This document shows, one piece after another, positions 1,763-8,876 of a stretch of 53,384 bases of DNA. The notes under the pieces are model-generated. The model did not search any database. It saw only the letters and a list, made by a program, of their open reading frames with translations, and was not told the DNA's origin. Every line of letters starts with the position of its first letter. Positions within the stretch are counted from its first letter, which is position 1. The stretch spans positions 1 through 53,384 of the forward strand of contig JAHBWF010000038.1 of NCBI GenBank assembly GCA_019637105.1, in the 5' to 3' direction. This stretch comes from Labilithrix sp. (lineage in GTDB: Bacteria > Myxococcota_A > Polyangia > Polyangiales > Polyangiaceae). The position numbers and the translations under genes were made by a program.

Positions 1763-2599
1763 TCAGAGCTCCATCGGCCCGGTGGCTCGACCGTTGATGA
1801 ACTGCTGGACGATGCCGTTCGGCGTGCTCTTGAACTCGTCGCGGCTGCCGTAGAGCAGGACCTTGCCGCGGTAGAGCATGACGATGCGGTCGGCGATCGT
1901 GAAGATGCTCGAGAGGTCGTGGCTGACGACGATCGACGTGACGCCGAGCTTGTCCGACAGCTCACGGATGAGGACGTCGACCCGCCGCGCGCTCACGGGA
2001 TCGAGAGACGTCGTGGGTTCGTCGAACAGGACGTACGAAGGATCGAGCGTGAGGGCCCGCGCGATCGCGACGCGCTTCCGCATGCCGTCGCCGAGCTCGG
2101 GCGGGTACCGATCGCCGAACTCCTGCATGTGAACGAGCTCGAGCCGCCGGCGCGCCTCGGCGATCGCGTCCTTGAGGCTCAGGGCCTTGTGCTTGCGGAG
2201 CGGGAGCGCGACGTTCTCGGCGCACGTCATCGAGTCGAAGAGCGTCGAGTGCTGGAACACCATCGCGCACTTCATGCGCACCGGGCCCATCCGTTGCTCG
2301 TCGAACTTGGAGATCTCCTCGCCGTCGAGCCAGATCTCGCCCGAGTCGGGGTAGAGGAGGCCGACGAGGTGCTTGATGAGCACGCTCTTGCCGACGCCGG
2401 ACGCCCCGATGATGAAGAACACGGAGCCCGTGGGCACGTCGAACGAGACGTCGTTGAGGACCGTCTTGGGCCCGAACGACTTGACGATGTTTTTGAACTG
2501 GATCAAGGCTTCGCGCGTTGTCCTGGGGATCGCAGCGATCTCGCAGGAGCGGACGCTATCGTAGAACAAAACGTGCTTCCGTCCGTCCAATCGGATCAT
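1763..2599 (-). CDS. MlaF-like ABC ATPase with degenerate signature motif
   Basis: This is a cytoplasmic ATPase of the Mla/Mce-type lipid transport family, which drives phospholipid movement between inner membrane and periplasm. Counting from the first ATG, Walker A is GASGVGKS (65-72), Walker B ends VLFDEP with Glu194, and the H-loop His is intact (VVSHD, His227). The signature reads LGDGM (169-173) where the family has LSGGM or LSGGQ, so the conserved Ser and a Gly are lost. The D-loop is TTSLDP. Family proteins usually begin a few residues before IQFKNIVKSFG, so the TTG at 2504-2506 (247 aa) may be the true start; no clear Shine-Dalgarno sequence decides this. The second ATPase of the same type lies 5 kb away and has the complementary defect. 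Confidence 0.92.
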   Translation of the reverse strand: MIRLDGRKHVLFYDSVRSCEIAAIPRTTREALIQFKNIVKSFGPKTVLNDVSFDVPTGSVFFIIGASGVGKSVLIKHLVGLLYPDSGEIWLDGEEISKFDEQRMGPVRMKCAMVFQHSTLFDSMTCAENVALPLRKHKALSLKDAIAEARRRLELVHMQEFGDRYPPELGDGMRKRVAIARALTLDPSYVLFDEPTTSLDPVSARRVDVLIRELSDKLGVTSIVVSHDLSSIFTIADRIVMLYRGKVLLYGSRDEFKSTPNGIVQQFINGRATGPMEL

Positions 2600-2667
2600 C
2601 CGCCCGAGCGCCAGCTTCTTCGGGCGCGTGGCCCGCGGGCCGAAGGAAGAATCAGAGGAGACCCTGG

Positions 2668-3012
2668 ATGCGGACGAATCATCGATGGCTCGCCACCCTC
2701 ACGGCCGCGCTCGCCGTCGCGGCGGCGCTCGCCAGCGTCCCGGCCGCGGCCGCGCCGGATACGTCGGTCAAGGACACGATGAAGAAGATGCAGGCCCAGG
2801 TGCTCAACGGCGACGCGAAGCCGCTCGCCGCCATGTTCGACGCCACGAAGGCCAAGGGGAGGCCGGAGTTCGCCAACTGGGGCCCGATCTCGGACAAAGG
2901 CAAGGCCGCGGCCGTCAAGGGCGATCTCGACGGCGCGAAGGCGACCTGCAAGGAGTGCCACGACGCGTACCGGACGGATTTCAAGACGAAGTACGGCTCG
3001 AAGGCTCCGTGA
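2668..3012 (+). CDS. Periplasmic class II-like cytochrome c (small)
   Basis: A GAGGAG Shine-Dalgarno sequence lies 7 nt before the ATG. The 114-residue product has a Sec signal peptide of about 28 residues ending AAAA|PD. It carries one haem-attachment motif CKECH (Cys94, Cys97, His98) close to the C-terminus, followed by DAYR. A C-terminal CxxCH preceded by helical sequence is the layout of class II cytochromes (c', c556), although the mature part (about 86 aa) is shorter than usual for that class. It is probably a periplasmic electron carrier; the partner cannot be named from the neighbourhood. It is divergent from the ATPase gene and shares a 68-bp upstream region. The 3' end carries a 23-bp tandem duplication over the stop codon. 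Confidence 0.82.
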   Translation: MRTNHRWLATLTAALAVAAALASVPAAAAPDTSVKDTMKKMQAQVLNGDAKPLAAMFDATKAKGRPEFANWGPISDKGKAAAVKGDLDGAKATCKECHDAYRTDFKTKYGSKAP

Positions 3013-3033
3013 AGTACGGCTCGAAGGCTCCGT
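2988..3033 (+). repeat. 23-bp tandem duplication across the cytochrome stop codon
   Basis: Positions 2988-3010 and 3011-3033 are identical. The junction creates the TGA stop now used (3010-3012). The second copy ends at the TAA that presumably was the original stop, so the encoded protein is unchanged by the duplication. Confidence 0.9.
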
Positions 3034-3050
3034 AAGGATAGCTCGCGCGT

Positions 3051-3067
3051 GTCCGGCCGGGCCGGAC
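3051..3067 (+). terminator. Inverted repeat after the cytochrome gene
   Basis: GTCCGGCC and GGCCGGAC flank a single G, giving a GC-rich hairpin 38 nt after the stop codon. No T-tract follows, so it is only a candidate terminator. Confidence 0.35.
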
Positions 3068-3204
3068 GGGGCCGCCCCGTCAAGCTCGAGCGTAAAACGC
3101 GCGTGCGGCGGCCAGGAGCAGCCTCGATGCGGCGGCGCGGGACAGCGCCCGCGCGCCCTCGCGGCGGGCGGGATCCATTTTCTGGCTCAATCGGAGCGAG
3201 TCGT

Positions 3205-3210
3205 TAGACT
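3205..3210 (+). promoter_or_regulatory. Possible -10 element TAGACT ahead of the kinase gene
   Basis: TAGACT lies 31 nt before the ATG at 3242, with TGGCTC 16 nt upstream as a weak -35. It fits the TAnnCT hexamers seen before other genes in the window. No clear Shine-Dalgarno sequence precedes this ATG. Confidence 0.3.
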
Positions 3211-3241
3211 GCGGGCGAACGGCTCACGCCGCCTTTTCCCG

Positions 3242-4813
3242 ATGACGCATAGGCAGCTACAAGCGGGCGACTTTGTGACTCCGGCGGTGAGGCTCGTTCG
3301 CCCGCTCGCCGAGGGCGGCATGGGCCGCGTGTGGGTCGCCGAGCATCAGGGGCTGCACACCCAGGTCGTCGTGAAGCTGATGGCGCCGGAGATGGCGGAG
3401 CGACCGGATGGCGCGGAGCGCTTCGCGCGCGAGGCGGCCGCCTGCGCGGCGATCAAGAGCCCGCACGTCGTGCAGGTCTTCGATCACGGCGTGACCGACG
3501 ACGGGACGCCGTACATCGTGATGGAGCTGCTCGAGGGCGAGGACCTCGGCGCTCACCTCGTCGAGCAGGGCCGCATGGACCCGCTCGAGGTCGTCGCCTT
3601 CGTGAACCAGATCGGCAAGGCGCTCTCGAAGGCGCACAAGGCGTCGATCATCCATCGCGACATCAAGCCCGAGAACATCTTCCTCTGCGAGACCGAGGGC
3701 GGCGAGGTCTTCGCCAAGCTCCTCGACTTCGGCACCGCGCGGCGGGAGACCGAGACGAGCTCGCGGACCACCGTGCCCGGTCAGATCATGGGCACGCCGT
3801 ACTACATGAGCCCGGAGCAGAGCGTCGGCTCCGCGGACCTCGACGAGCGCTCCGACATCTGGTCGCTCGGCGTCGTCGCGTTCGAGGCGCTGACCGGGCA
3901 AAAGCCGTTCGACGGCGCGTCGGTCGGCGCGATCACCATCGCGATCCACGGGCCGCTCCCGAAGATGACGGACATCGCGCCGGAGCTGCCCGCGTCGCTC
4001 GACGCCTGGTTCGCCCGCGCCTGCGCTCAGCTCCCGGACGATCGCTTCGCCACCGTGCGCGAGGCCACGGCCGCGCTCGTTCACGCCGTCACCGGCGCGC
4101 ACCCGGTCGACCAGCCGACGGAGTCGGTGTTCTTCCCGTCGGTTCAGCCGAAGAAGGAGAGCACGCCCGTCCGCCCCGTCACGCGGCCGATCACCCCGCT
4201 GAGCGCGTCGCTCCCGGAGCGCGGCGCGGAGAAGCGCTTCACGACCATCGCGGCGGCCGCGGTGATGGGCGCCGCCGCGATCGCGATGGTGGCGATCGTG
4301 CTCGGCCGATCGCCCGCCGATCCCGCGCCGGCGGAGGCGCCGCCGACGACGCACGCCGCGGAGATGCCGCTGCCGCCGTCTCCGGATCCCGCGGCGGCGC
4401 CGAAGGGCGACGAGGCCCGCGGCGCTGCCGAGGCTGCGGAGGACGACGTCACCGGGAGCGCGGCCGGGGCGACCGCCGCGCGCGGCGAGCCGGCGAAGGC
4501 CGGCGCCGACGGCGCGGCAGGGAAGAGCGCGGCGAAGGTCGAGACGGCGAAGAGCGTCGCGGCCAAGCTCCCCGCGGCGGCGAAGCCCTCGGGCGGCGCG
4601 CGGCCAGCCGCGCCGGCGCCCAAGGCCGCGGCCGAAGACCGGGCGAGGGCGCGGACGACGATCTCGAGCGCCTCGCGAACGCGGCGTCGAAGCACGCGGC
4701 GCCGGAGCCCGCGCCGCCGGCGTCCGCGGCGCCGGCGTTCTGCCGAGGCCCGCGCCGGCGCCTCCGCCCGCGGGCGAGCTGAGCACGCGTCACCGCTGCC
4801 GCCGGCGCCCTGA
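3242..4813 (+). CDS. Membrane-anchored Ser/Thr protein kinase, 3' end probably frameshifted
   Basis: The N-terminal Hanks-type kinase domain (about residues 12-280) has a glycine-rich loop AEGGMGRVWVAE, the ATP-binding Lys in VVVKLM, a catalytic loop HRDIKPEN, LDFGTA and the MSPEQ segment, so it should be active. A transmembrane helix follows (about 330-350, IAAAAVMGAAAIAMVAIVLG), then an Ala/Pro-rich external tail. From about codon 465 (near 4640) the frame turns into an Arg-rich run. The next frame instead gives GEGADDDLERLANAASKHA, which looks like a natural kinase tail, and the third frame from 4737 gives LPRPAPAPPPAGEL. Two lost bases in GC runs would explain this. The gene is convergent with the permease genes. 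The substrate is unknown. Confidence 0.9.
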   Translation: MTHRQLQAGDFVTPAVRLVRPLAEGGMGRVWVAEHQGLHTQVVVKLMAPEMAERPDGAERFAREAAACAAIKSPHVVQVFDHGVTDDGTPYIVMELLEGEDLGAHLVEQGRMDPLEVVAFVNQIGKALSKAHKASIIHRDIKPENIFLCETEGGEVFAKLLDFGTARRETETSSRTTVPGQIMGTPYYMSPEQSVGSADLDERSDIWSLGVVAFEALTGQKPFDGASVGAITIAIHGPLPKMTDIAPELPASLDAWFARACAQLPDDRFATVREATAALVHAVTGAHPVDQPTESVFFPSVQPKKESTPVRPVTRPITPLSASLPERGAEKRFTTIAAAAVMGAAAIAMVAIVLGRSPADPAPAEAPPTTHAAEMPLPPSPDPAAAPKGDEARGAAEAAEDDVTGSAAGATAARGEPAKAGADGAAGKSAAKVETAKSVAAKLPAAAKPSGGARPAAPAPKAAAEDRARARTTISSASRTRRRSTRRRSPRRRRPRRRRSAEARAGASARGRAEHASPLPPAP

Positions 4814-4853
4814 CGCGATCCGGCACGGCGCCGGGTCGGCCGGGGAGGAGCCC

Positions 4854-5678
4854 TCAGCCGGGGAAGATGAGGAAGCCGGCGCCCGAGATGAAGAAGTTGA
4901 GGATGATGATCGCGAGCGACGTGTTGACCACGGCGCGCGTGGTGGCCCAGCCGACGCCCTCGGAGCCGCCGAAGGTCGACAGGCCGCAGTAGCCGCTCAC
5001 GATCGGGATCGCGGCGCCGTAGGCGAGGCACTTCGCCAGGCCGATCGAGAGGTCGCCGGCGTCGACGAGCGTGATGTTGAAGAAGGTCTGCAGCGGGACG
5101 TCGAAGGCGACGTAGGCGGTCACGCCGCCGGCGACGAAGGCCACGGTCCCCGCCCAGACGATGAGGCAGAGCGTCATCACCACGCTCGCGACGAAGCGCG
5201 GCACGATGAGAAAATCGATCGGATCGGCGGCGCACATCCGGAGGGCGTCGACCTGCTCCGTCACGACCATCGAGCCGATCTCCGCCGCGATGCCGGCGCC
5301 GACGCGCGTCGCCAGCATGAGCGCGCCGATGGAGGCGGCGAGATCCCGCACGAGGAGCTCGAGGTAGGTCGCGCCGAGCATCGTGAACTCCGGGACGACG
5401 CGCTTCGCCTGGAGGCCCGACTGGTAGACGAGGATCATCCCGATGAAGCCCATCGTCGTCGAGAGGAAGAAGAGCGAGCGGTTGCCCATCTCGTACATCT
5501 GCTGCACGAGCGCGCCCTTCTCGCGGCGCCCCCGGAACGTGTAGTAGAGGGTCCGGACGAAGACCGAGTAGAGCTCGCGTCCGCCGAGGAACAGATCGAC
5601 GGCCGCGGCGCCGAGGAGGCCCACCGGGCCAAGCTCCTCGTGCTCCTTCTTCTCGAGCGTGCCGACCTGGTTCGTCAT
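4854..5678 (-). CDS. MlaE-like ABC permease, second of a tandem pair
   Basis: The 274-residue inner-membrane protein of the MlaE/YrbE permease family has about five to six hydrophobic segments. It carries the family signature around residues 140-165, VVTEQVDALRM followed by ADPIDFLIVPRFVA, which contacts the ATPase. It forms the membrane channel of a lipid ABC transporter. Its ATG lies 6 nt after the stop of the permease gene upstream, so the two are co-transcribed and probably co-translated. It is similar in length to that neighbour but clearly different in sequence, so a heterodimeric permease is likely. The N-terminus (MTNQVGTLEKKEHEEL) is charged and cytoplasmic. No MCE-domain substrate-binding protein is present in the window. 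Confidence 0.92.
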   Translation of the reverse strand: MTNQVGTLEKKEHEELGPVGLLGAAAVDLFLGGRELYSVFVRTLYYTFRGRREKGALVQQMYEMGNRSLFFLSTTMGFIGMILVYQSGLQAKRVVPEFTMLGATYLELLVRDLAASIGALMLATRVGAGIAAEIGSMVVTEQVDALRMCAADPIDFLIVPRFVASVVMTLCLIVWAGTVAFVAGGVTAYVAFDVPLQTFFNITLVDAGDLSIGLAKCLAYGAAIPIVSGYCGLSTFGGSEGVGWATTRAVVNTSLAIIILNFFISGAGFLIFPG

Positions 5679-5684
5679 CCCGCC

Positions 5685-6509
5685 TCAGCCGCCGATGGCG
5701 AAGCTCACGAGGTAGTCGAGGACGAAGATCCCCGCGGCGCTCGTCACGACCGTCGAGTTGACGGCGCGGCCGACGCCCGGCGCGCCGCCCGTCGTCGCGA
5801 GGCCGAAGTGGCAGCTCGCGAGCGCCATGACGAGGCCGAAGACGAAGCTCTTGAAGAGGCCGTTCGCCACGTCGCCGAAGTCGAGGAGGCCCGCGGTGAG
5901 GCCGTTGAAGAACGTCGTGGGGCTCACGCCGAGCAGCGCCTGGCCGGTGTACGCGGCGCCGAAGAGCGCGAGCGCGTCGGCGAAGAGCGTCATCATGAAG
6001 AGCGTGCTGACGATCGCGACGAAGCGCGGCGCGATGAGGAAGCCGATCGGGTCGATCGCGAGGACGCGGAGGGCGTCGAGCTGCTCGGTGACGACCATCG
6101 TCCCGAGCTCGGCGGTGTTGTTCGCGCCGACGCGGCCCGAGATCATCAGGGCGGTGAGCAGCGGGGCGATCTCGCGGAGCGTGCCGAAGCCCGCGCCCCA
6201 CCCGAGCAAGCCCTCGGCGCCGTAGCGCTTCACGATCGTCGCGGCCTGGATGACCATGATCGCGCCGGTGAACAGCGCCGTCACGACGACGATGGGCAGC
6301 GATTTCACCGCCATCTTGTAGAGGTTCTTCCAGAGCTCGCGCCCGTCGAGGCGCAAGCGCGCCAGGCGCGCGAGGATCTTCACCAGGAGGATCGTCATGC
6401 CGCCGGCGGTGTGCGCCGCGGACAAGAACCCGCCGCCGAGCGCGGCGAGGAAGGTCGTGAGCGCCCCCGGTGCGGCGGCCTTCTCGGGTGTGGTCGTCTG
6501 CGCGGCCAT
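5685..6509 (-). CDS. mlaE: MlaE-like ABC permease, first of a tandem pair
   Basis: The 274-residue MlaE/YrbE-family permease has the conserved segment VVTEQLDALRVLAIDPIGF and PRFVA. It has five to six membrane segments, including LPIVVVTALFTGAIMVIQAA. I chose the ATG at 6507-6509, the first Met with a sensible cytoplasmic N-terminus (MAAQTTTPEKAAAPG). The frame is open further upstream, but that part is Arg-rich and non-family. No clear Shine-Dalgarno sequence is present; a TATAGT hexamer lies 15 nt before the ATG. The stop is 6 nt before the start of the second permease. It is expected to pair with that permease and with an MlaF-type ATPase to move phospholipids across or out of the inner membrane. 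Confidence 0.93.
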   Translation of the reverse strand: MAAQTTTPEKAAAPGALTTFLAALGGGFLSAAHTAGGMTILLVKILARLARLRLDGRELWKNLYKMAVKSLPIVVVTALFTGAIMVIQAATIVKRYGAEGLLGWGAGFGTLREIAPLLTALMISGRVGANNTAELGTMVVTEQLDALRVLAIDPIGFLIAPRFVAIVSTLFMMTLFADALALFGAAYTGQALLGVSPTTFFNGLTAGLLDFGDVANGLFKSFVFGLVMALASCHFGLATTGGAPGVGRAVNSTVVTSAAGIFVLDYLVSFAIGG

Positions 6510-6524
6510 GGTGGCGAGCGGCGA

Positions 6525-6530
6525 ACTATA
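6525..6530 (-). promoter_or_regulatory. Possible -10 element TATAGT for the permease pair
   Basis: TATAGT on the minus strand lies 15 nt upstream of the permease ATG in an otherwise GC-rich gap of 221 bp. No convincing -35 is visible. Confidence 0.35.
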
Positions 6531-6730
6531 CACGCGGATCACGGCCTCGCTCCATCGGTTCCGGGGCCGCTCGGCCGGGCGGGCGCGAGACGTCTCCTCC
6601 CGCCGACGGCCGCCGCGGGCCCGAGCTCCGCCGCGTCCGAGCGCCGGAGCTCCGCGACGCGGGGGGATCGCCTGCGGCGCGGCCGATCCCGCGCGACGCT
6701 CGGCGCCGCGCCCGAGCCGCGGAGGCCGCG

Positions 6731-7069
6731 TCACTCGATCTCGGGCAGCCCGATCGCCCAGGCGATCACGCCGATGAGGAAGGCGCTGGCGACCGCGACG
6801 ACGGCCGCGACGAGGACGCCGACCACGAAGCCGAGGACGCGTCCGCCCACGCCGCGCAAGGTCGTCCACGACCCGCGCGTCTTCGCGAAGTGGAACGGCA
6901 GCGCGAGCAGCCCGAACGCAACGATGGCCGCGTCGCGGCTCGCCGGAGGCCACGCGCGCTCCAGCCGCTCCTCGGTCAGCCGGCGCGTGTCGACGATCAC
7001 CACGGCGAACGTGAGCGCGTTCGTCACGACCCACGACACGACGATCTCGATGACCTGGGCGCCGGACAT
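6731..7069 (-). CDS. Small three-helix membrane protein of unknown function
   Basis: The 112-residue product has hydrophobic segments at about 5-25 (VIEIVVSWVVTNALTFAVVIV), 45-60 and 85-110. The middle holds a charged loop (DTRRLTEERLERAWPP). The ATG is preceded by GAGAGCGAG, a usable ribosome binding site. I do not recognise a family. It lies between the ATPase at 7187-7942 and the permease pair, on the same strand and with 117 bp and 221 bp gaps. It may therefore be an accessory membrane component of the transporter, but position is the only evidence. Confidence 0.65.
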   Translation of the reverse strand: MSGAQVIEIVVSWVVTNALTFAVVIVDTRRLTEERLERAWPPASRDAAIVAFGLLALPFHFAKTRGSWTTLRGVGGRVLGFVVGVLVAAVVAVASAFLIGVIAWAIGLPEIE

Positions 7070-7186
7070 CTCGCTCTCGACCGTCCGCGCGCGGCTAGCG
7101 TCCCTCGCCCGGCGGAGGCGGGATCTCGGCGCCCTCACGAGCCGCGGGGACGACGAGGTCCCTGGCCGGACGTCGGGCGGGCGGCA

Positions 7187-7942
7187 CTAGAGCGGCCCCT
7201 CGGTGAGGCCGTGCACGAACTGCCGCACGCGCGGCTCCTCGCTCGTCTGCGCCTCGTGCGTGGTGCCGTCGAAGATCAGACGACCGCGGTACATCATGCC
7301 GACGCGGTCGGTGACGGTGAGGAGCCGATCGAGATCGCTCGACACCATGACCACCGTCGCGCCGGACGCGCGCTGCTCCTCGCGGAGCAGCTCGAAGATC
7401 TTCTGCGAGGTCACGGGATCGAGCCCGGCGGCCGGCTCGTCGTACAGGACGATCGGCGCGCGCGTGATCGTCGCGCGCGCGACGCCGACGCGCTTCTTCT
7501 GCCCGCCGGAGAGCCCGGCCGGGAGGCGGCCCTCGAAGCCGGTCAGCGCGACGTGCGCGAGGCGCTCCATGACGCGGTCCTTGATCTGGTCCTCGCCGAG
7601 ATCGGTCAGGCGGCGGAGCGGGAACGCGATGTTGTCTCCGACGGTCATGTGATCGAAGAGCGCGTTGTTCTGGAAGAGCATCCCGAACTTGAGGCGCATC
7701 TTCTGGAGGTCGAGCTCGGACGCCTGGGTGACGTCGACGCCGTCGACGGTGATCGACCCGCTGTCCGGCTTCATCAGCCCGACGATCATCTTGAGCAGGA
7801 CGCTCTTGCCGGACGCTCCCGGTCCGATGAGCCCGTAGAGGCACGACGCGGGGACGTGCAGCGACACGCCCTCGAGGACCTGGTTCGGCGGTCCTCCGCC
7901 GGAGGGTCGGAACGCCTTCGATACGGACTGGATCGTGATCAT
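7187..7942 (-). CDS. mlaF: MlaF-like ABC ATPase lacking the H-loop histidine
   Basis: The 251-residue ATPase of the Mla/Mce lipid transporter family has Walker A GPGASGKS (40-47), a canonical signature LSGGQ (144-148) and Walker B IVLYDEP with the catalytic Glu169. The H-loop reads VSSD (Ser202) where the paralogue at 1763-2599 and the family have SHD. The His normally needed for hydrolysis at its own ATP site is thus missing. I chose the ATG at 7940-7942 because MITIQSVSKAF is the normal family N-terminus; upstream in-frame codons are Arg/Ala-rich. It follows the YscJ-like gene by 22 nt in the same operon. It is likely to power the permease pair downstream. Confidence 0.93.
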   Translation of the reverse strand: MITIQSVSKAFRPSGGGPPNQVLEGVSLHVPASCLYGLIGPGASGKSVLLKMIVGLMKPDSGSITVDGVDVTQASELDLQKMRLKFGMLFQNNALFDHMTVGDNIAFPLRRLTDLGEDQIKDRVMERLAHVALTGFEGRLPAGLSGGQKKRVGVARATITRAPIVLYDEPAAGLDPVTSQKIFELLREEQRASGATVVMVSSDLDRLLTVTDRVGMMYRGRLIFDGTTHEAQTSEEPRVRQFVHGLTEGPL

Positions 7943-7964: not shown

Positions 7965-8816
7965 TTACATCGCCTGGCCGGGGCCGCGCGCGCTCGTCGC
8001 GACCGAGCGCGGGGCGGGCTGGGGCCGGGCCGCGGCGGCGGCGAGCTCGAGCTCACGGTCGCGGCGCATCCGCCCGACCTTCGCCCAGAGCGCGAGCGTC
8101 GCGGCCGCGAGCCCGAGGACGACGATCGCGAGGCCGGCGAACGCGAGCTTCAGGGTGTTCATCGAGCCGCGCGCGACGGTGATCGGGCCGACGTGCGCGA
8201 GGTCGGTCCGGCCGCCGCTCGCGCGCGAGGTCCGCGGGACGAACACGACCGCGACGTCCGCGACGGCGACGCCGGGAGCGCCGCCGGCGACGAGGCTCTG
8301 GATCGACTCCGGCGCGAGCGGCGGCGTCGCCCCGCGGTGCTCGACGAGGACGCTCGCGGTCGACTTCGGAGGCGGACCGTCGCGGAGCAGCTCGCGCGCG
8401 GGCACGTTGAGGTGGACGCGCGCGGCGAGGACGCCGTCGACGCCGCCCAGCGTCTTCTCCAGCTCCCCGGCGAGGCCCGCGACGAGCTGGGCGTGCTCGG
8501 CCGCCTGGCTCGGGACGAGCTGGCCGCGGCCTCCGGCCTCGAGGACGCCGCGCGGCTTCGGCCGCGGGAGCTCCTCCTCGCGCATCGTCGCGAGCGCGCG
8601 GCCGACGTCGTCGCGCGCGACCGTGACCCGGAACTTGCCCTCGCTCTGGGGGTCGGCCTCCTTCGAGGCGTCGATGCCCGACTGGTCGAGGGCGACGACG
8701 ACCCGGTTGGCGTCCGGCTCGTCGAGCGCGGCGGCGACCGGGACGGCGCAGCCCGCGCCGAGCGCGAGGAGCGCGATCGTCGAGAGCGCGGAGCGGAGGC
8801 TGCGAGCGACGGCCAT
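7965..8816 (-). CDS. sctJ: YscJ/SctJ-like (FliF-family) inner-membrane ring lipoprotein, orphan
   Basis: The 283-residue product has a lipoprotein signal peptide ending LGAGC (Cys23). A YscJ/FliF-type periplasmic part follows: RVVVALDQSGIDASK, FRVTVARDDVGRALATMRE, LEKTLGGVDGVLAARVHLNVP and ASVLVEH. A C-terminal transmembrane helix sits at about 222-246 (LKLAFAGLAIVVLGLAAATLALWA) before a basic cytoplasmic tail. This is the domain order of the type III secretion MS-ring lipoprotein SctJ. No other type III secretion gene is in the window. The ATG at 8814-8816 fits the signal peptide better than the in-frame ATG six codons upstream, and a TATACA hexamer lies 8 nt before it. It is first in the operon with the ATPase gene. 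Confidence 0.85.
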   Translation of the reverse strand: MAVARSLRSALSTIALLALGAGCAVPVAAALDEPDANRVVVALDQSGIDASKEADPQSEGKFRVTVARDDVGRALATMREEELPRPKPRGVLEAGGRGQLVPSQAAEHAQLVAGLAGELEKTLGGVDGVLAARVHLNVPARELLRDGPPPKSTASVLVEHRGATPPLAPESIQSLVAGGAPGVAVADVAVVFVPRTSRASGGRTDLAHVGPITVARGSMNTLKLAFAGLAIVVLGLAAATLALWAKVGRMRRDRELELAAAAARPQPAPRSVATSARGPGQAM

Positions 8817-8824
8817 GGGCCGGT

Positions 8825-8830
8825 TGTATA
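8825..8830 (-). promoter_or_regulatory. -10-like TATACA placed for a leaderless transcript
   Basis: TATACA on the minus strand lies 8 nt before the preferred ATG of the YscJ-like gene, a distance that would put transcription start at or next to the start codon. No Shine-Dalgarno sequence is present. Confidence 0.4.
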
Positions 8831-8876
8831 CCATCCGCGACGCGCTCGAAACGCCGGGGCCCGTGGCTCCGGGGAG

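Follow-up and report, generated by a model that had tools for sequence, protein, structure and literature searches.

Two MlaF-like ATPases with complementary defects suggest a heterodimeric MCE/Mla-type transporter with one degenerate ATP site

The window analysed here is the whole of contig JAHBWF010000038.1 from Labilithrix sp., a stretch of 53,384 nucleotides (contig C267 of the genome searched, which comprises 8.45 Mb in 334 contigs). Its minus strand encodes two MlaF-like ATPases of the ATP-binding cassette (ABC) type, A and B, with two MlaE-type permeases, E1 and E2, between them. The conserved motifs lost from A are kept in B and those lost from B are kept in A, which suggests an asymmetric, heterodimeric ATPase. 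Papers are cited by PMC number, each for the excerpt of it that was available.

Genes and motifs at the locus

An earlier, sequence-only reading of this DNA had placed both ATPase frames correctly and left their strand unstated. It had also recognised the two permeases between them, with no mention of the plus-strand kinase and short open reading frame that share the interval. The genes are as follows.

7187..7942, minus strand: ATPase B, MlaF-like; open reading frame of 251 residues with Ser202 at the H-loop
6731..7138, minus strand: small membrane protein S, between B and E1; without Pfam or NCBIfam match
5685..6509, minus strand, ATG at 6509: MlaE-type permease E1; PF02405 E 1.8e-65; PDB matches to MlaE and YrbE1A/B
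4854..5678, minus strand: MlaE-type permease E2; PF02405 E 3.7e-52; in the orthologous place in relatives' clusters
3242-4813, plus strand: Ser/Thr kinase, inserted between A and the B-E1-E2 block
2518-3012, plus strand: short open reading frame without Pfam match, also between A and the B-E1-E2 block
1763..2599, minus strand: ATPase A, MlaF-like; open reading frame of 278 residues with signature LGDGM

The start of ATPase A is uncertain, as alignment to most orthologues begins at about residue 21-32 of the frame. S-like proteins (matches of 36-81%) lie near the equivalent position, from B to E1, in a number of relatives, and S may, at a guess, be an accessory subunit of the complex. Two other loci (L012 and L013) contain a gap of about 2.2-2.4 kb, similar in size to the insertion at 2518-4813 of the window.

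ATPase A carries the Walker A motif GASGVGKS, the signature LGDGM (residues 169-173), the Walker B motif YVLFDEP and the H-loop VVSHD, with His227. The corresponding motifs of B are GPGASGKS, in which the fourth Gly of Walker A is Ala, LSGGQ (residues 144-148), IVLYDEP and MVSSD, with Ser202 in place of the H-loop His. The sequence-only reading had described the same states with the correct residue numbering: a damaged signature with the His kept in A, an intact signature with the His lost in B, and a Walker B Glu retained by both chains. Alignments around both motifs rule out a misread motif or frame. The best NCBIfam match for A and B alike is PRK11831/MlaF, at 193 and 172 bits against an MlaF cut-off of 441, and the closest chains in the PDB are MceG, which ranks top for both, and MlaF.

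Each ATP site of an ABC dimer is shared by the two chains: one contributes Walker A, Walker B and the H-loop, and its partner contributes the signature (PMC7544095, PMC7756269). The losses in A and B would hence fall together on one site of an A-B dimer, formed by the catalytic residues of B and the signature of A, and spare the other.

Conservation of the two defects and of the gene set

A scan of 84,980 species genomes for A confirmed 317 stretches, and the best 80 of these were retained and read. Relatives came from Myxococcales, Polyangiaceae, Sorangium, Labilithrix, uncultured delta-proteobacteria and the like, the nearest named ones being metagenome-assembled genomes of Labilithrix. None of the six peptide patterns used in the scan spans the signature or the H-loop; one (YVLFDEPT) spans Walker B, and Glu retention in this set is thus not independent evidence. 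The SGG of the signature is missing from all 80 (78 LGDGM, 1 MGDGM, 1 LGDGV), and SHD and DEP are kept in 80/80. B is also present in 34 of these 80 A loci, with SGGQ and SSD in 34/34; B, E1, E2 and A are frequently contiguous and co-directional in these relatives. B was likewise found in all ten genomes reached through named records, each copy reading LSGGQ/DEP/SSD. Chance is excluded because the complementary states are conserved in 80/80 A and 34/34 B, and decay in a single genome or an assembly artefact is ruled out by the same conservation, which includes the complete genomes of Sorangium cellulosum and Minicystis rosea.

Later retrieval relied on whole-protein similarity to A or B, and the defects were tallied over MlaF-like ATPases scoring above 150 bits in the fetched loci (439 sequences, reduced to 338 by removing those with the same last 90 residues and to 333 by requiring at least 200 residues). 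A tree was built from these after masking the signature, Walker B and H-loop columns, and each clade was taken as the best bipartition for its label. One bipartition (support 0.858) comprises exactly the 164 proteins with a signature defect alone, the A clade; another (support 0.899) comprises 141 proteins with Walker B or H-loop defects alone plus one with both kinds, the B clade. With Escherichia coli MlaF as outgroup, A is monophyletic and B is monophyletic. Circular choice of homologues by motif is rejected on these grounds, namely retrieval by similarity, masked motif columns and monophyly of the clades under the MlaF outgroup. Nor does the tree support A and B as sister copies from a local duplication, as A plus B is not a clade on it; the origin of either is not placeable on it, the 27 other sequences being a convenience sample.

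The A signature is damaged in all 164 members of the clade (150 GDG, 9 GP[S/P/G], 3 SDG, 1 GEG and 1 GAG), and every one keeps both the Walker B Glu and the H-loop His. At the Walker B and H-loop positions, the 142 B proteins read Glu/Ser in 86, Asp/His in 50, Asp/Ser in 2, Glu/Thr in 1 and Asp/Gln in 1; the remaining two are an Asp/Ser protein in which the preceding Walker B Asp is lost too and an Asp/His protein with LAGGL as its signature. The His is thus lost in 91, the Glu in 55 and one or both in all 142; the Glu losses lie mostly outside the window's class, and the window's own B keeps its Glu. None of the 27 other MlaF-like ATPases, E. coli MlaF (LSGGM/DEP/SHD) included, has a defect. 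The fourth Gly of Walker A is replaced by Ala in 89/142 B, 0/164 A and 0/27 others, a change that falls on the same composite site. Several kinds of change in B and A therefore converge on one site, and this carries the weight of the tally, as the sequences are related and the counts are not independent events. A Fitch reconstruction gives Asp as the root state at the B Walker B position; root and sampling are uncertain, and we do not rely on it.

The sequence-only reading had asked whether the two defects are conserved and co-occur, and had held that homologues with one defect alone would speak against a pairing. Taken literally, such homologues exist, for 51 of the 142 B proteins keep the H-loop His. 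In each of these 51, however, Asp replaces the Walker B Glu. We read these proteins as strengthening the heterodimer idea, because the Asp replacement belongs to the same composite site as the His loss. A and B occur at one locus in 95 distinct pairs, of which 90 are on the same strand and 84 within 3.5 kb. The site that would combine B catalytic residues with the A signature is damaged in 95/95 of these linked pairs, and the site that would combine A catalytic residues with the B signature is intact in 94/95.

The run B-E-E-A is complete for 87 of the 164 distinct A proteins, many others lying on short stretches. An MCE match lies within 2 kb of 141 of the 164. When the genome was searched with PF02470, no MCE protein turned up within the window, and the source genome's MCE copy most like the A-linked ones is on contig C292. 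Because relatives have an MCE gene (D) near A, the full set is thus B-E1-E2-A-D, an MCE transporter with two permeases and two ATPases. The MCE copy of locus L016 matches PF02470 at 2.9e-17, and its AlphaFold model (mean predicted local distance difference test score 63.1) has a single helix at the N-terminus, then an MCE barrel, and helices of low confidence over about 190 residues; the model is fair in the MCE domain, with 10-residue means of about 65-87, and poor in the helical tail. Its best fold matches are E. coli MlaD, with Mce1 chains also listed at poor superposition. Just downstream of ATPase A in the window, on the side where many relatives have the MCE gene, a 33-base unit is repeated in tandem in about 9.8 copies (1416-1737).

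A and B are also inherited together. Among 115 genomes of the order, counting A at 55% identity or more (which excludes paralogues of 41-47%) and B at any 1e-60 match (69 genomes, 49-100% identity), 67 have both, 6 have A alone, 2 have B alone and 40 have neither (Fisher P 5e-22, ignoring kinship). Partial copies of the missing gene occur in the A-only genomes G006 and G096 and the B-only genome G069 (L180, L177 and L179), which were kept off-diagonal; in G065, another of the eight single-gene genomes, the contig stops inside E1.

The transporter genes have been shuffled, yet are retained as a set. B abuts or overlaps A, with no permease between, in L104 (G086), in L120 and L176 (G111) and in L065; in G086 and G111, E1 and E2 are a neighbouring pair on another contig. 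B lies about 0.8 kb from A in G042, and was not found within the A flanks examined in two Polyangium genomes. Orthologues of both E1 and E2 are present in each of six genomes where the genes are rearranged (6/6); the best E2 match in two phylum genomes without A is just 36-37% identical. G060 has A beside E2, and B about 25 kb from E1 on a shared contig, a layout that hints, as one case, at which permease each ATPase may dock on. No A-B fusion was seen in the coordinate listing of the loci.

Loci were read from many, not all, of the genomes in the phylum sample that contain A. Those outside the window's class have the same B-E-E-A-MCE set, with B nearly always keeping the H-loop His and reading DDP at Walker B, and with A signatures that are mostly [F/I/L/V]GDG[M/L]. 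Families f27 and f43 have VGP[S/P/G][E/Q] as the A signature, and the deep families f13, f14 and f15 of the window's own class have LSDGM. A phylum search with B (178/235 genomes at 1e-50) mixes B with canonical relatives and is not used as a count. In family f35, a further ABC ATPase reading LSGGQ/DEP/THE lies about 2-3 kb upstream of B-E-E-A on the opposite strand (L290, L296, L298 and L301; weaker in L294).

A proposed asymmetric transporter and its alternatives

From these sequence comparisons, it is very probable that A and B form a heterodimeric ATPase with one consensus and one degenerate ATP site, acting on the E1 and E2 permeases together with an MCE protein. The half-degenerate heterodimer suggested by the sequence-only reading thus gains support from linkage, co-occurrence, the paired permease and a partition of defects that holds across the phylum. 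We infer the pairing itself because the defects partition into one perfect and one crippled site, whereas in a homodimer, whether of A or of B, both sites would be crippled.

In the proposed stoichiometry, A and B would be two distinct ATPase subunits of one MCE/Mla-type ABC transporter. The membrane part would be a heterodimer of the MlaE-type permeases E1 and E2, and the periplasmic part would be D, an MCE protein that carries a long helical tail and whose gene lies near A in most of the relatives examined. The consensus site would consist of the Walker A, Walker B and H-loop of A with the LSGGQ of B and act as a normal hydrolytic site, while the degenerate site would consist of the Walker A, Walker B and H-loop of B with the LGDGM of A. 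By analogy with TM287/288, Pdr5 and an ABCB11-like mutant of ABCB1, the degenerate site may bind ATP without normal hydrolysis, and either hold the nucleotide-binding domains together or release its ATP. One ATP would then be hydrolysed per cycle, at the consensus site, and the motion of the nucleotide-binding domains would be lopsided, matching a lopsided E1/E2 pore. The substrate, judged by family, would be a lipid. A lopsided MCE transporter using one ATP per cycle is proposed because catalytic loss in B accompanies signature loss in A in 95/95 linked pairs, as in known degenerate sites.

Several observations weigh against this proposal. In the window, A is split from B-E1-E2 by the plus-strand genes, and the source genome's MCE gene is not on the window's contig. 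In the complete chromosomes of Sorangium and Minicystis, about 0.3 to 2.8 Mb separate A from B, and in family f23 the set is divided, with A and MCE on one stretch and B and one permease on another. Four of the A-only genomes (G034, G094, G102 and G112) gave no B at 1e-60, and the system is far from universal, with A found at E 1e-70 in 100 of 235 sampled phylum genomes. The clade supports, 0.858 and 0.899, are moderate. One B of the 142 (L282, the LAGGL protein) has an altered signature, and hydrolysis may be slowed, not abolished, by a Walker B Asp or by losing the H-loop His.

Some of these points would favour two separate transporters. One would join a homodimer of A to E2 and the other a homodimer of B to E1, and in either case the two ATP sites would be identical and partly impaired. 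In support, some genomes have A and B unlinked, G060 has A beside E2 and B on the contig of E1, and B in family f23 accompanies a single permease. Yet both sites would then have a broken signature in the A transporter, and both would lack His or Glu in the B transporter. Separate transporters also leave unexplained why the cis residues are lost in 0/164 A and the signature is changed in 1/142 B, why A and B co-occur, and why the catalytic loss in B differs by lineage while the signature of A stays broken. We consider this arrangement highly improbable. It is harder still to believe that the changes are functionally silent, with LGDGM and SSD permitting hydrolysis so that both sites of an A-B dimer are active. 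In its favour, both window chains retain the Walker B Glu; against it, the H-loop His, Walker B Glu and signature are all reported to have roles in ATP binding or hydrolysis (PMC7544095, PMC7756269), and the changes are conserved and co-located, with differing chemistries hitting one site. Least probable of the three is that B, or A, is a non-hydrolysing regulator or scaffold and that a canonical MlaF-like ATPase from another locus completes the working dimer. The genome does contain MlaF-like ATPases with canonical motifs, on contigs C57 and C1, but the linkage is B-E-E-A-MCE and not with these paralogues, and A and B each keep exactly the half needed for the other's good site.

Beyond the window, the A-B heterodimer probably defines a branch of MCE transporters across the phylum, with an obligate heterodimeric ATPase, one hydrolytic site and one dead site, and a dead-site chemistry rewritten between lineages. 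The chemistries observed are His loss with Walker A Gly to Ala, Glu loss, and a signature of GDG, SDG or GP[S/P/G]. Why many ABC transporters have dead ATP sites remains to be fully revealed (PMC5216877). A natural, phylum-wide set in which one site is disabled by different residues in each lineage makes this question testable by comparison and by residue swaps. If the proposal is true, selection acts on asymmetry itself rather than on any particular residue, and the mechanics of degenerate sites arose independently in the MlaE-fold class. It would also add a second route to asymmetry in MCE systems, beyond YrbE heterodimers.

Known systems and neighbouring features

The E. coli MlaFEDB complex resembles the proposed transporter in its MlaE-type permease, MlaF-like ATPase and MlaD-type MCE protein. 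It has one type of ATPase, MlaF, however, whereas here there are two ATPase clades and two permeases, and the ATPase would not be a homodimer. MlaF is a homodimer whose assembly requires a C-terminal handshake of about 25 residues (PMC7367683). This handshake is mostly lacking in A and B, which end near the point aligned to MlaF residue 252/269. The mycobacterial Mce1 system (YrbE1A/YrbE1B, MceG and Mce1A-F; 8fed) has a heterodimeric permease, as proposed for E1/E2, and in D, as in its MCE proteins, long helices are predicted to follow the MCE domain. MceG is a homodimer, thought to be common to several systems, and YrbE1A/B is a heterodimer (PMC9882608). In contrast to Mce1, with its homodimeric MceG and six MCE genes, the system described here would have a paired ATPase with one degenerate site, and mostly one MCE gene is seen beside A.

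One consensus and one degenerate composite site are likewise present in TM287/288, TAP, MsRv1273c/72c, Pdr5, ABCB11 and ABCG5/G8. The membrane folds of these degenerate-site transporters differ from MlaE. As far as the excerpts extend, papers on degenerate sites treat mainly exporters, whereas the present case concerns MlaE-type permeases with an MCE protein. In those transporters, changes of the Walker B Glu, H-loop, Walker A and/or signature fall on one site (PMC5216877, PMC12038006, PMC7544095, PMC4242082, PMC7756269), and the degenerate sites of Pdr5, ABCG5/G8 and ABCB11 combine losses of Glu, His, Walker A and signature in varying mixtures (PMC7756269). Loss of the Walker B Glu is named a hallmark of the degenerate site (PMC7544095); most of the window's order differs in keeping the Glu and losing the H-loop His, with Walker A Gly changed to Ala. 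In TM287/288, nucleotide at the degenerate site, which has a Walker B Asp, stabilises contact between the nucleotide-binding domains (PMC5216877). ABCB1 is inactivated when the catalytic Glu alone is lost, and regains function once ABCB11-like changes that weaken its ATP binding are introduced as well (PMC7544095). The constant pairing of catalytic and signature defects observed here fits this result. No heterodimeric ATPase of an MCE system was found described in the titles and abstract openings of an open-access library of 5.39 million papers, among the matches listed, and as far as we could see the A-B system is new as a variant of MCE/Mla transporters.

Immediately upstream of ATPase B, the window encodes a lipoprotein of the YscJ/SctJ secretion-ring type (7965-8834, minus strand), assigned from a PF01514 match above the cut-off and a TIGR02544 match of 1.1e-35 that is below its cut-off. 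No other secretion genes were recognised among the scanned open reading frames, which cover part of the window. The genome also contains an additional MlaE-like permease at G000:C266:32906-33456, seen as two partial matches (L006 and L007) with one internal TGA each.

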